From the NCBI GenBank assembly GCA_947488625.1, contig CANKZR010000001.1, positions 1,736,001-1,800,000 on the forward strand: a stretch of 64,000 nucleotides of DNA, in the 5' to 3' direction. This document shows positions 41,078 through 44,393 of the stretch, piece by piece. Position numbers and translations under genes: made by a program. Position 1 is the stretch's first letter, and each line of letters opens with the position of its first letter. The notes beneath the pieces are model-generated. The model searched no databases. It had not been told where the DNA came from and worked only from the letters and a program-made list of their open reading frames with translations. This stretch comes from an uncultured Sphingomonadaceae bacterium. Lineage in GTDB: Bacteria; Pseudomonadota; Alphaproteobacteria; Sphingomonadales; Sphingomonadaceae.

Positions 41078-41122
41078 TTTGCGATGGCCGGGAATGACCG
41101 GGCGGCGAATGGCTGCCTGACG

Positions 41123-44100
41123 TCAGGCGACCTCATGTTCCTGGCTACGTTCTTCGTCGTGGCCAAGGGCGTCCCCCACTTCCCTGAGCGAGGCGTTTTC
41201 ATAGGCTGTTGCTCTGCGTCGCAGCAAGATGATGATGTCCCCTGCCGCGGCCATCTCGTGTTTGCTGGCGATCCGCCGGTCGATCACGGTGCGAAAGTGG
41301 AAGCCGTAGTCCTGCAACTCGTTCTCGAGTTCCTCTGCTTTATGCGGACGCCATGCGAGAATCCGGGCGCCGTCGATCTGTGTGGATAGCAGCCGGTCCC
41401 AGCGCTCTCCGCAAAAACCGTCACCTTCGCGCACGGTGTGCGCGTGTAGATGCACCGAGTCCTGCAAGTTCATCGCTGCCATCAGGAAGTCGGTCACGTG
41501 CCCCTTGTCCGTCGCCTGTTTGGCCAGGAAACGTTCTGCCAGTACGGAACAGGCCAGCACGCGATCGGCCCCGGCGCTTTTCAGAGCTGCATCGTTTTCC
41601 TTGATCGTGATCTCCGCCATGATCGGCCATGCCTTGTCGTCTTCGCCAAGCCCGTGGCGCTGTTTCCACCTCCGGCGGACATCGGCCATTATCTTGGTGC
41701 GTAGGATCTGGTCGGAATCCGCTTCGTGCACGTCCTCCATCGATGAATGATCGGTGCGCCCGTCAGTGGTTTGCAGGATGATGCAGCTATCGAGGTGATC
41801 GGGCAGCGTATCGAGAATGGCTTCGATCTGCATCGCCCCTGCGTCGAGATCGACGGGATGGAACTTCAATCGCTTGTCGTAATAGCAGCGGAGTTGCTCC
41901 TCCAGATCCACCAGGGTCCGCTTGCCGGTAACAACGCATACGGACAGCTCCCGCTCGTCCTCCAGCAGGAATTGCGGGCTCTCTACCGGCTGGGGGGAAT
42001 GGCCCTTGGCATGGTCATCGATCTTCCTGCGCGAGGCAGCGGAATAAACGATCGTCGCGTCCTTTTTCAGCTCCCGCTTGCGGAAGTCGACATCCACGAT
42101 CGTTCGCTGGTTCGGGTCGGGACAGATGGAAACGGTCAGCTTGTCGCTCCTGATGGGCCTGTCGAATACGCCCACGATATTCACCCCCGCACCGATCTTG
42201 CTACGCCGCAGATCGGCGACCGACATCGCGTCTTTCCCGAGTGCCTGCGAAAGCTCGCTGACAGGCTTGGAGAACAGGCGATCGGTCTTGCCCTTGTTGA
42301 ACGTGAGGCTATCGAACACATAGTCCACGAGATCGGGAGAACGCAGCGCAGTGGTGGCCAGACGGATGGCAACCAGCCTGTCGAACACAAATCCCTTGCA
42401 CCCGCTGACCCGGAAGGCATCGAAATTCTCGGCAAATTCAAGCTCGGCGCAGATATGGGCGTGGGGTGCCAATCCATGTGCATTCATCGCTGCAAGGATT
42501 CCCACCTTGTTTTGCGAATTGGCGGCCGAAAAATCGGCGAGGACGATCACCGCGCTGGCATCAGCGGCATTGGCGGCGACAAGCGCCTTCCGGCTGGCCG
42601 GAGAACCGCAGCAGTAGAAGACCCGCTTTTGATCGAAATCGTGTTCCTGCAGCGGTAGAAATTCGTGGCAATTTGCCACGATCGTTACGTCTCTCGCGGT
42701 GGCAATGTTGTCGCCGGTAAGCGCGTAGATGATGCCGGAAGCCTTCTCGTTCCAGCCGCAGATCAGGATATGGCCTTTCTGCGTGCTTTTCTCCCGGCCC
42801 TCGATCGCGCGCTGCTTCCTGTTTTCCACCTTCTGAATGCGGGAATACATGTAGCCGAGCGGGGTCGCGATGCCGGCAATGGCCAGGATCGCAACGATGA
42901 TCTTGCCCAGAAAGCTGGCGGGGTAGATGTTATCGGCCGTGAAACCGCTGCCGATGTAGGTGATCATCCAGACGAAAGCGTCCATTGCGTCCAGCTGGGC
43001 AAAGGGGCTGAGAGAGCCCTGTGCCACCGCGAAGGCATCCTCGACTTCCAGCAGCAGGAACAGGAACGCGGCAATGGCTGAGGCTATGATAAAAATCGCG
43101 ACGATGACGTAGGACAGGAAATCCAGCACCTTGCGACCCAGCTTGCGCGCCTGCAGATTGCCGAGCCGATCGTATTTGGTGCGGGTGATGCGATGGTAGA
43201 AAGCCCACCCCACGACGACTGCCAGGGCCAGGCCAGAGGCAATATAGATTGCCATCGGTATCGCCGGAAGCAGACCTGCCTGCTCGAACTCGCTACGCGC
43301 CGCGGAGTGATATTCGATCATTCCGCCAGGTTCGCGCACATCGAAAGCGGGCTGTCCCGGTATTGCCTGTCGCAGTCTTGCCCAACCGTCGATCAGGGCA
43401 CCGGTCACGCGATCGACCGTGGAGGCCGGCTGATTGACGTTGGTCAGCAAATAGGCCTGGACCGCAAGTTGCTGTCCGGCCTGCGTGGAAGGGGTAACGA
43501 GCCGGTAATCGTGCGCCTGGCTGAACAGCGCGCTGGCAATCTCCTGTGACAACTGAAGCTGTCGCAAGGCAGCGTCGGAAGGGGCAACCAGTCCTGCCGA
43601 AACGGTGAAGGTGGCGGCGATCGGGCCCGCGCCCAGTTCGACGACTTCCGCAGGCTGCTCCGTTTGTTGCCCATCGGCCGCCTCTTCGGCATCGATCTCG
43701 CCGCCATCGCTTTCTTCTTCCTCGGCTATAACGGGCGCGGGTGGGTTTACCATCTGGGTCAGGCAATCGCCGACCGGCAAGGTAACGGGAAAATAGTCGA
43801 TGCCGGCGCGCAGGCCCGCTTCCTGCAGGATCTGGTTTGCATGGACATAGGTGCCGGAGCCCGGAGGCCCCACGCATATGCTGGTGCCCCTTAGATCGCC
43901 CAGCACCGCGACCCCACTTTGCACCGGAACGAGGACCTGCACATATTCGGGGAAGAGCGATGCGACATAGGCATAGTCGTCGAAGCGGCTTTCCCCGCCC
44001 AGGCCCTGCGCAGACATTTCCGCCATGTCCCCCTGCACCACGGCAAAATCCACCTCGCCGGATCGCAACAGTTCGAGATTCTCGACCGATCCGGCGGTTT

Positions 44101-44293
44101 CCACCAGTTCGATATCGATCTCGGCGTTCTGGCTGAAGGCGCGGCCGAAGGCGTGATAAGTGCCGCCTTCGCTGCCCGTCGCAAGGCGGATCGTCTCGCG
44201 CCCCCCCTGCTCTACACTATAGACGTAGGTGTAAGTAAAAACGGCCAGTGCAAACAGCACGACGCCGCTGAAAACCACATGGATCCTGCGCAT
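41123..44293 (-). CDS. TAXI-type binding domain fused to an ion-channel pore and RCK domains
   Basis: This 1056-aa protein combines three parts. Residues 7-27 are a transmembrane helix or anchor. Residues about 34-330 form a TAXI-family TRAP solute-binding domain (IRLATGSEGGTYHAFGRAF, VETAGSVENLELLRSGEVDF then AVVQGDMA, GPPGSGTYVHANQILQEAGL), with an acidic Glu/Asp-rich insertion at 190-216. Helices lie at 341-366, 391-416 and 459-483, with a pore loop WMITYIGSGFTADNIYP (442-458). There YIGSG takes the place of the potassium-channel filter TVGYG. From 506 an RCK/TrkA-N-like domain begins (GHILICGWNEKASGIIYALT), and a second such region follows to the C-terminus. The layout suggests a channel gated by an extracytoplasmic ligand, like GluR0 but with a TAXI receptor. 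The non-standard filter leaves selectivity open. Confidence 0.75.
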   Translation of the reverse strand: MRRIHVVFSGVVLFALAVFTYTYVYSVEQGGRETIRLATGSEGGTYHAFGRAFSQNAEIDIELVETAGSVENLELLRSGEVDFAVVQGDMAEMSAQGLGGESRFDDYAYVASLFPEYVQVLVPVQSGVAVLGDLRGTSICVGPPGSGTYVHANQILQEAGLRAGIDYFPVTLPVGDCLTQMVNPPAPVIAEEEESDGGEIDAEEAADGQQTEQPAEVVELGAGPIAATFTVSAGLVAPSDAALRQLQLSQEIASALFSQAHDYRLVTPSTQAGQQLAVQAYLLTNVNQPASTVDRVTGALIDGWARLRQAIPGQPAFDVREPGGMIEYHSAARSEFEQAGLLPAIPMAIYIASGLALAVVVGWAFYHRITRTKYDRLGNLQARKLGRKVLDFLSYVIVAIFIIASAIAAFLFLLLEVEDAFAVAQGSLSPFAQLDAMDAFVWMITYIGSGFTADNIYPASFLGKIIVAILAIAGIATPLGYMYSRIQKVENRKQRAIEGREKSTQKGHILICGWNEKASGIIYALTGDNIATARDVTIVANCHEFLPLQEHDFDQKRVFYCCGSPASRKALVAANAADASAVIVLADFSAANSQNKVGILAAMNAHGLAPHAHICAELEFAENFDAFRVSGCKGFVFDRLVAIRLATTALRSPDLVDYVFDSLTFNKGKTDRLFSKPVSELSQALGKDAMSVADLRRSKIGAGVNIVGVFDRPIRSDKLTVSICPDPNQRTIVDVDFRKRELKKDATIVYSAASRRKIDDHAKGHSPQPVESPQFLLEDERELSVCVVTGKRTLVDLEEQLRCYYDKRLKFHPVDLDAGAMQIEAILDTLPDHLDSCIILQTTDGRTDHSSMEDVHEADSDQILRTKIMADVRRRWKQRHGLGEDDKAWPIMAEITIKENDAALKSAGADRVLACSVLAERFLAKQATDKGHVTDFLMAAMNLQDSVHLHAHTVREGDGFCGERWDRLLSTQIDGARILAWRPHKAEELENELQDYGFHFRTVIDRRIASKHEMAAAGDIIILLRRRATAYENASLREVGDALGHDEERSQEHEVA

Positions 44294-44393
44294 GTCGCCA
44301 CCCCCCCTGACAGATGTCTAAGACAGGCTTTTTACGATTGCAAACCGGGGCAATCGACAAGGTCCGTGCGCGAGGCAGTGCGCGCGGGAAGCG

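Follow-up and report, generated by a model that had tools for sequence, protein, structure and literature searches.

The locus examined here raises the question of whether a single bacterial protein couples a TAXI solute-binding domain to an ion-channel pore and RCK domains, and what such a protein would respond to and conduct. The window, i.e., the whole stretch of 64,000 nucleotides that was analysed, belongs to an uncultured Sphingomonadaceae bacterium. The gene product is best read as a TAXI-linked P-loop/RCK channel. Features and coordinates are compiled in Table 1.

Table 1. Features of the gene and its surroundings, with positions in the window
Feature	Residues	Position	Strand	Evidence
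Segment between two conserved neighbours		41078..44393	.	In seven sibling genomes the neighbours' aligned ends lie 19-50 bp from each other
Whole gene: TAXI, helix, P-loop pore, RCK1, probable RCK2	1056 aa	41123..44293	-	
Predicted hydrophobic N-terminal segment, an export signal or an uncleaved anchor	6-24	44222..44278	-	Hydropathy peak 2.08
TAXI solute-binding domain; putative ligand residues Y46, Q87, E116 (and S69)	34-342	43268..44194	-	TIGR02122, PF16868, profile search
Acidic low-complexity insert in TAXI lobe 2, about 40 residues	183-226	43616..43747	-	Alignment; pLDDT <50
Membrane helix joining TAXI to pore, predicted outside to inside	347-369	43187..43255	-	Hydropathy, model
Outer pore helix	385-425	43019..43141	-	Hydropathy, model
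Pore helix, including YIGS	436-449	42947..42988	-	Model
GFTADN, where K+ channels carry the filter TVGYGD	450-455	42929..42946	-	Alignments to RCK channels, MthK and KcsA; profile-profile; model
Inner pore helix	461-498	42800..42913	-	Hydropathy, model
First RCK domain (CGWNE at 512-516), end approximate	505-760	42014..42781	-	Pfam, MthK profile, model, Foldseek
Probable second RCK domain, limits approximate	783-1028	41210..41947	-	Foldseek alignment on weak model

Reading frame and relatives

The open reading frame is real: it is single and uninterrupted and starts with ATG. The search for further proteins combining TAXI, channel and RCK parts, proposed with the original prediction, was carried out with two peptide patterns only, so that relatives carrying neither pattern would escape; 80 of 88 relatives were kept. 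It yielded eight full-length relatives (1016-1041 aa, from separate assemblies, three close pairs among them) with the same domain order and an identity by domain of 25-34%. Their hosts are Maricaulis, Oceanicaulis, Parvularculaceae and one unclassified alphaproteobacterium.

That two genes were merged by a frame or assembly error was considered, and the occurrence of the gene in only one genome among those searched of its order fits such an artefact. A frame fusion is excluded because the eight relatives from other assemblies share the full-length order, and the frame contains no internal stop. An artefact is thus extremely improbable, and the claim of one continuous protein was borne out. 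A tree combining the nine fused TAXI domains with 34 free ones, the latter taken best-first from matches to the window protein with loci rather than as a random sample, placed the fused domains in one group with a support of 100/100. Signal peptide aside, each domain had a dN/dS within 0.03-0.17; these ratios were obtained from two measurable pairs of relatives, the window gene itself having no close relative to measure.

TAXI domain and putative ligand

A TAXI domain had been claimed at residues 34-330 and was confirmed. TIGR02122 (108.4 bits, cut-off 84.35) and PF16868 (87.8, cut-off 27) matched, and a profile of the nine fused TAXI domains retrieved the structure 1us4 with an E-value of 1.2e-39. 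Foldseek with the low-confidence full-length model gave the TAXI structures 8s4j, 9ibo, 4ddd, 8u79 and 1us4 at a target TM of 0.64-0.68, in line with the two-lobed TAXI fold. The acidic insert in lobe 2 is confined to the window protein and missing from the other eight family members in the alignment.

The domain belongs to the same family as the TAXI binding proteins of TRAP transporters (VcGluP, TtGluBP) and the TAXI domain of TAXI-GltS. According to the available part of PMC11574862, Tyr, Gln and Glu of VcGluP (Y45, Q93, E125) hold the amino group of glutamate. This triad is kept in all nine fused TAXI domains, versus 12 of the 34 free ones. These residues therefore point to an amino acid, for instance L-glutamate, as the likely ligand, and the small organic ligand of the original prediction can be narrowed to an alpha-amino acid, with L-glutamate or close kin the most likely. 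The lobe 2 residues Y200 and M201 of VcGluP have no clear counterpart, and lobe 2 of the window protein contains the acidic insert; both points count against this assignment.

Unlike VcGluP, TtGluBP and TAXI-GltS, the present domain is fused to a channel and does not serve a TRAP or GltS transporter. The absence of TRAP permease genes nearby extends to the whole window genome, in which neither a match to DctM, the large TRAP permease, nor a second TAXI match was found. A role as a TRAP component in this organism was rejected. Since DctM permeases are present in all five relatives' genomes searched, a link to TRAP transport is excluded for the window genome only.

Membrane part and pore fold

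Lysine and arginine residues number eight in the loop 368-392, none in 418-462 and seven in 486-510. The full-length model was poor (mean pLDDT 58) and too weak for fine claims; the channel part was therefore remodelled with 58 sequences. The resulting monomer (mean pLDDT 79.6) consists of outer helix, pore helix, loop and inner helix, so that the predicted pore loop between two helices is present.

The top 15 Foldseek matches of this model were all MthK chains. A profile of pore plus RCK1 matched MthK (E 8e-15, from the middle of the pore helix onward) and BK (E 5e-7, outer helix covered). With the membrane part alone, 39 of 41 distinct PDB matches were named potassium channels, and another, Lmo2059, is presumably one as well; these matches are individually weak (best E 0.022 at a cut-off of 5), and many are KcsA or KCNQ variants. 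For comparison, 72 loci of RCK channels (L052-L123) were reduced to 49 by removing two that were too short and 21 redundant ones, and 32 of the 49 formed profile A9. In a profile-profile comparison the membrane profile of other RCK channels matched the family with a probability of 90.7% over 41 columns. Pfam Ion_trans_2 left the pore unmatched in the window protein, in three relatives and in two membrane parts scanned alone.

An uptake system in which TAXI hands its ligand to a tethered membrane part has been proposed for TAXI-GltS fusions, and the existence of these fusions, as described in the accessible text of PMC12344293, indicates that membrane proteins outside TRAP systems also occur as fusion partners of TAXI. 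Here the membrane part comprises three helices, a P-loop and an RCK ring and is no elevator transporter, which makes tethered uptake very unlikely.

Position and composition of the filter

The original prediction had read YIGSG (446-450) as the selectivity filter. The letters are present, and their position as a filter was rejected: YIGS ends the pore helix, and the filter was placed at 450-455 by HMM alignments to MthK and KcsA, by profile-profile alignment and by the model. The stretch from W442 to P458 also aligns without gaps with 48 of the 49 other RCK channels, giving the same placement. The position of TVGYGD is occupied by GFTADN in the window protein and by GFTEND, GFTENN or GLTLQD in its relatives. 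TVGYG occurs in none of the nine family members, versus TVGYG, SVGYG or TVGFG in 30 of the 49 other RCK channels of the same alignment; both glycines are gone, replaced by T452 and D454 in the window protein. Within the family position 453 holds A, E or L and position 454 holds D, N or Q, a variation that does not allow a fixed selectivity motif to be defined. The predicted alteration of ion selectivity thus agrees with the loss of both glycines, while its original reasoning (Tyr for Thr, Ser for Tyr) rested on a misplaced alignment.

Because the K+ signature is lost, K+ selectivity of the pore is unlikely, as judged from the sequence. A GluR0-like, TAXI-gated channel that selects K+ despite its unusual filter would agree with the nearest PDB pore relatives being K+ channels. 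Against it stand the substituted filters of all nine members and the example of CASTOR, which likewise is without TVGYG and is Ca2+-selective according to a partial text of PMC6697748. Such a channel is considered distinctly improbable.

The same filter, with no glycine kept and variable letters, and the missing Ion_trans_2 match would also suit a receptor with a decayed, non-conducting pore, in which TAXI binding is relayed to the RCK ring, acting on a partner or binding nucleotide. In other Alphaproteobacteria, proteins with a hydrophobic segment behind TAXI and no channel do exist (loci L004, L005, L009, L015 and L035). However, all nine members share W442, S449, G450, T452, the outer proline P458, G463 and G474, and dN/dS is lower in the membrane/pore part than in any other domain (0.027 and 0.058 in the two informative pairs of relatives), which decay would not produce. 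A non-conducting receptor is hence unlikely, although it is the least improbable of the alternatives, and a conducting P-loop pore is preferred.

Cytoplasmic region

The predicted RCK-like region from residue 506 was found from 505, directly after the inner helix, where Slo-like_RCK (PF22614; 39.4, cut-off 24) and TrkA_N (PF02254; 30.6, cut-off 23.8) matched. For the second RCK domain the sequence match to the MthK RCK was not significant (E 0.07) and Pfam gave none; Foldseek alignments run along the cytoplasmic part at low TM on the weak full-length model. The cytoplasmic part probably consists of two RCK domains.

Pore and RCK1 resemble those of MthK, a Ca2+-gated K+ channel that carries a single RCK in each chain and is not known to have an external domain; MthK has the canonical filter, in contrast to the present family. 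D184, E210 and E212 of MthK are Ca2+-site residues. The first two align with the family-invariant D587 and E617; the counterpart of E212 is Glu in the window protein only and Ala or Asn in the other members compared.

GsuK has a two-helix pore and is not known to have an external binding domain, and GxGxxG is a nucleotide motif. The window protein is similar in joining a two-helix pore to two RCK domains per chain, the second here being probable. Unlike GsuK, its family carries CGWNE at the start of RCK1 and lacks GxGxxG. GsuK gave the best Foldseek E-value with the full-length model (9e-17), but at a target TM of 0.34 and an rmsd >20. ADP, NAD+ and Ca2+ gate GsuK, a dual-RCK K+ channel, as given in the accessible portion of PMC3510474.

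CASTOR, POLLUX and DMI1 are plant nuclear Ca2+ channels with the filter AD-S(A)GNHA, CASTOR being dual-RCK and without TVGYG (PMC6697748, available part). The putative TAXI channel shares with them an RCK gating ring and a filter without TVGYG; the filter letters differ. A weak profile match to the CASTOR RCK (E 5e-4) was obtained, and Castor_Poll_mid was unmatched in the window protein (to E 10) and in three relatives (to E 0.01).

Genomic setting

The gene was absent from all 39 congeners searched, and in seven of them the aligned ends of the flanking neighbours lie 19-50 bp apart, which together suggests horizontal gain. Base composition is uninformative on transfer (GC 0.601 in the gene, 0.607 in the window). 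Comparison of gene neighbourhoods across the family revealed neighbouring genes common only to near relatives. A plasmid search returned 102 records, none spanning 80% of the query, and the best 20 of the 102 all lay within residues 1-346. Single-sequence scans of genome contigs and of viral contigs yielded nothing useful. Genome searches scored few candidates per genome (up to 2, 4 or 6, depending on the search).

Proposed mechanism and significance

Sequence and model show the domains with their order and conservation, the missing K+ filter and the conserved residues for binding an amino group. From these we infer, with reasonable though limited confidence, a ligand-gated cation channel that assembles as a tetramer and has two sensors, TAXI for an amino acid outside and a probable dual-RCK ring inside, around a pore without a K+ filter. 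Outside the inner membrane, TAXI would close around its amino acid, for which L-glutamate or a close relative is the likeliest candidate. By way of the short linker and the joining helix, closure would shift the outer pore helix and help to open the P-loop pore. Inside, the gating ring, with probably two RCK domains per subunit, would pull on the inner helices in response to a cytosolic ligand. The pore would probably pass cations with little preference for K+, possibly including Ca2+. The channel may thereby convert external amino-acid supply and internal state into a membrane or Ca2+ signal.

GluR0, a glutamate-gated K+ channel of prokaryotes, and the prokaryotic iGluR groups similarly fuse an external solute-binding domain, with a likely amino-acid ligand in the present case, to a two-helix P-loop pore. 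In prokaryotic iGluRs the pore sits between two halves of the binding domain (PMC2950845, partial text), whereas in the window protein an unbroken TAXI domain comes first, then the pore, which has lost the K+ filter, and then the RCK domains. With amino-acid sensor, pore and gating ring in one protein, this would be a bacterial counterpart of a glutamate-gated channel. The fuller proposal, a glutamate-gated, non-K+-selective and perhaps Ca2+-permeable channel gated from two sides by TAXI and dual RCK, which arose independently of GluR0 and iGluRs from another binding-protein family, is put forward tentatively.

No description of a TAXI-linked channel was found in the literature searched, part of which consisted of titles and abstract starts. 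If the proposal is true, this would be, as far as the present searches reach, the first case of a TAXI receptor gating a channel, and P-loop channels gated by a binding protein would have been invented a second time, separately. The protein would also provide a bacterial example of an RCK-gated pore without a K+ filter, of which the plant CASTOR/DMI1 group is the sole characterised example in the literature searched, as far as the partly available sources extend. External nutrient sensor and internal RCK ring would be united in one chain, so that a single molecule would allow the study of gating from either side of the membrane.

Gene and family

The channel gene was translated as one open frame from ATG to stop, giving a product of 1056 aa. 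A TAXI solute-binding domain, scoring over the curated cut-offs of TIGR02122 and PF16868, makes up the N-terminal third, and the region behind the membrane part matched Slo-like_RCK and TrkA_N above cut-off (Pfam); the TAXI domain and the RCK-like region from about residue 506 in the original prediction were both borne out. The membrane part matched no Pfam family above its own cut-off, and the pore was therefore assessed by other routes.

Positions of the features in the window (nt) and in the window protein (aa)
Feature	Position	Strand	Basis
Channel gene	41123-44293 nt	minus	translation
Junction of flanking genes	41078-44393 nt
AAA ATPase and DUF4435 genes	16441-18885 nt	plus	PADLOC
Linking helix	347-369 aa		predicted model
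Outer helix	385-425 aa		predicted model
Pore helix	436-449 aa		predicted model
Loop	450-460 aa		predicted model
Inner helix	461-498 aa		predicted model
Slo-like_RCK and TrkA_N match	505-631 aa		Pfam

The window protein, searched against 98 other genomes from its genus, family and order, returned five pieces of TAXI and a single match of 97 residues (E 7e-4), the latter to a K+ channel with the filter AVGYGD. In the class, 89 of 385 genomes gave a match at E 1e-10, and of the matches listed all but the window's own were confined to the TAXI part. With the part after TAXI as query, a search of 397 further genomes from the phylum gave one full-length relative; 5 of 150 genomes of its order were positive, that relative included. 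A six-sequence alignment used as query recovered eight full-length relatives in 84,980 species genomes, five of which were genomes found in the preceding searches, with identical proteins. The hosts were Maricaulis (4), Oceanicaulis (2), a Parvularculaceae bacterium (1) and an unclassified alphaproteobacterium (1). A profile of pore plus RCK1 added no family member, either in 245 further genomes from the window's order or in 384 further ones from its class. The relatives measured 1016-1041 aa, counted from the first start codon, with identities to the window protein of 29-34% (TAXI), 28-31% (pore plus RCK1) and 25-30% (RCK2).

In all eight relatives the parts follow one another as in the window protein, within a single open frame, which rules out a fusion of two reading frames. 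The window frame is, by these comparisons, one conserved gene, rare in the genomes sampled, and its TAXI-pore-RCK architecture is nearly certain. Values of dN/dS were 0.03-0.17 in all domains outside the signal peptide, based on two close pairs of relatives, the third pair being nearly saturated and the window gene having no close relative; all domains are under purifying selection in these two measurable pairs.

Membrane part and pore

By hydropathy, all nine family members have a hydrophobic segment at each of the three positions expected behind TAXI. Two relatives (L048 and L050) had one additional segment, at the pore helix, and weaker ones occurred within the cytoplasmic part of the window protein and of two others (L044 and L045). 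Basic residues numbered eight in the loop 368-392, none in 418-462 and seven in 486-510 of the window protein; by the positive-inside rule, this pattern places RCK on the inner side of the membrane and TAXI, like the pore loop, on the outer side.

The profile of pore plus RCK1 matched MthK (E 8e-15, aligned from mid pore helix onward) and BK (E 5e-7, starting before the outer helix). Searched alone, the membrane part matched 41 different PDB sequences at E values up to 5 (best E 0.022), each weak singly; 39 were named potassium channels, one was a lipid receptor and one was Lmo2059, a potassium channel as well. Comparison with a profile of the membrane parts of other RCK channels gave a probability of 90.7% over 41 columns. 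The structure of the channel part was predicted from 58 sequences (mean pLDDT 79.6), and its best 15 Foldseek matches were all MthK chains. The presence of a conducting pore is considered likely.

Selectivity filter

Of 49 other RCK channels, 48 aligned to residues W442-P458 free of gaps, and the counterpart of TVGYGD was G450-F-T-A-D-N455. This placement was common to the RCK-channel alignment, the profile alignments (MthK, KcsA, RCK channels) and the modelled end of the pore helix. The filter originally proposed, YIGSG (446-450), was not confirmed, as it lies mostly within the pore helix. In the family the position reads GFTEND (5), GLTLQD (2), GFTADN (1) or GFTENN (1); S449, G450 and T452 are invariant, and positions 453-455 include one or more acidic residues in every member, in a column that is not fixed. 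Both filter glycines are lost in 9/9 members, which supports the predicted change in selectivity. CASTOR is described in PMC6697748 as an RCK-ring channel without TVGYG that is Ca2+-selective. The simplest reading of the family filter would be a cation pore without K+ preference, and K+ selectivity has probably been lost in the window channel.

Among the 49 other aligned RCK channels, 19 had a filter without TVGYG and 17 of these had Glu in the filter region (loci L053, L055, L056, L057, L058, L060, L070, L072, L075, L076, L081, L087, L092, L093, L095, L106 and L111), as GQGEF in eight Synergistales and as SGEP, AGEP, ASEP, AAEP, GGEP, AAEY, AGEY or SSEY in the remainder. A wider class of RCK-gated channels without K+ selectivity may exist.

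Cytoplasmic part

RCK1 is clear. Residues 780-1056 matched no Pfam family and gave a weak sequence match to the MthK RCK (E 0.07). Foldseek matches of the full-length model were GsuK (E 9e-17), CASTOR and Slo; TM-scores were low (GsuK 0.34) and model pLDDT was 58, so that these matches indicate which kinds of domain are present and in what order, but not how they pack. Each chain probably contains two RCK domains. D184 and E210, Ca2+-site residues of MthK, aligned in the profile alignment with D587 and E617, both invariant; at the position of MthK E212, Glu occurs in the window protein only. The family has CGWNE where the nucleotide motif GxGxxG would stand.

External ligand

In VcGluP the Y45, Q93 and E125 side chains, together with the M201 backbone, bind the L-glutamate amino group, and binding is weakened 213-fold by Y45A and 990-fold by Q93A (PMC11574862). 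The three side chains correspond to Y46, Q87 and E116 of the window protein (8s4j alignment, counted by hand). The triad was found in 9/9 fused TAXI domains versus 12 of 34 free ones, which were gathered by likeness and include near copies; 16 of the 22 free domains without it have Y, L, N. Because all nine carry Y, Q and E, the fused domains look like the amino-acid-binding type. The S75 position holds Ser in seven and Thr in two. Two points count against an amino-acid ligand: Y200 and M201 in lobe 2 of VcGluP have no clear counterpart in the alignment, and lobe 2 of the window protein alone carries an acidic insert of about 40 residues. An amino acid is modestly favoured as ligand.

Five TAXI proteins without a channel (L004, L005, L009, L015 and L035; about 450-570 aa) have a hydrophobic segment on both sides of the TAXI domain and the Y/Q/E triad, and are possible orphan receptors. 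Two others (L008 and L025) have an additional N-terminal stretch of about 200 aa and perhaps resemble the elongated BP0403 of the TAXI-GltS work (PMC12344293).

Origin and surroundings

The fused TAXI domains formed one group in the TAXI tree (support 100/100); the position of the window row within that group is uncertain, because the row was flagged as long and compositionally unusual. A protein search found the channel gene in 0/39 congeners, some of these genomes being incomplete. The aligned ends of the flanking genes, named by reading as a branched-chain aminotransferase and a glutathione-transferase-like gene, lie 19-50 bp apart in 7/39 congeners versus about 3.3 kb in the window genome; in the remaining congeners the gap is larger or the two genes are not adjacent. 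The gene was likely gained by horizontal transfer; its GC content gives no sign of transfer. Across the congeners the junction measures between 19 bp and about 3 kb, and it may be an insertion-prone site. One congener (G012), negative in the channel protein search, holds about 3 kb of other DNA there. Gene neighbours are common to near relatives only.

A role in TRAP transport was rejected for the window genome: a whole-genome search returned neither a DctM match nor another TAXI match, so that TRAP transport explains nothing there, and the absence of TRAP permease genes noted nearby extends, for DctM, to the entire genome.

In the window's lowest-GC stretch an AAA ATPase gene adjoins a DUF4435 gene. 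Their best PADLOC matches, AriA (E 1e-29) and AriB (E 2e-15), suggest that the two form a PARIS-like pair for anti-phage defence, although the ATPase has weaker matches to another 66 PADLOC models.

Relation to known systems

GluR0-type proteins have a pore flanked by the binding-domain halves (PMC2950845), GsuK has a dual RCK (PMC3510474), and a fusion of TAXI to GltS is on record (PMC12344293). Among the papers listed in a literature search that covered few subscription journals, none described a TAXI-linked channel. The parts are of known kinds, and the TAXI-pore-RCK combination appears undescribed. The window protein is best described as a binding-protein-linked P-loop channel with an RCK ring.
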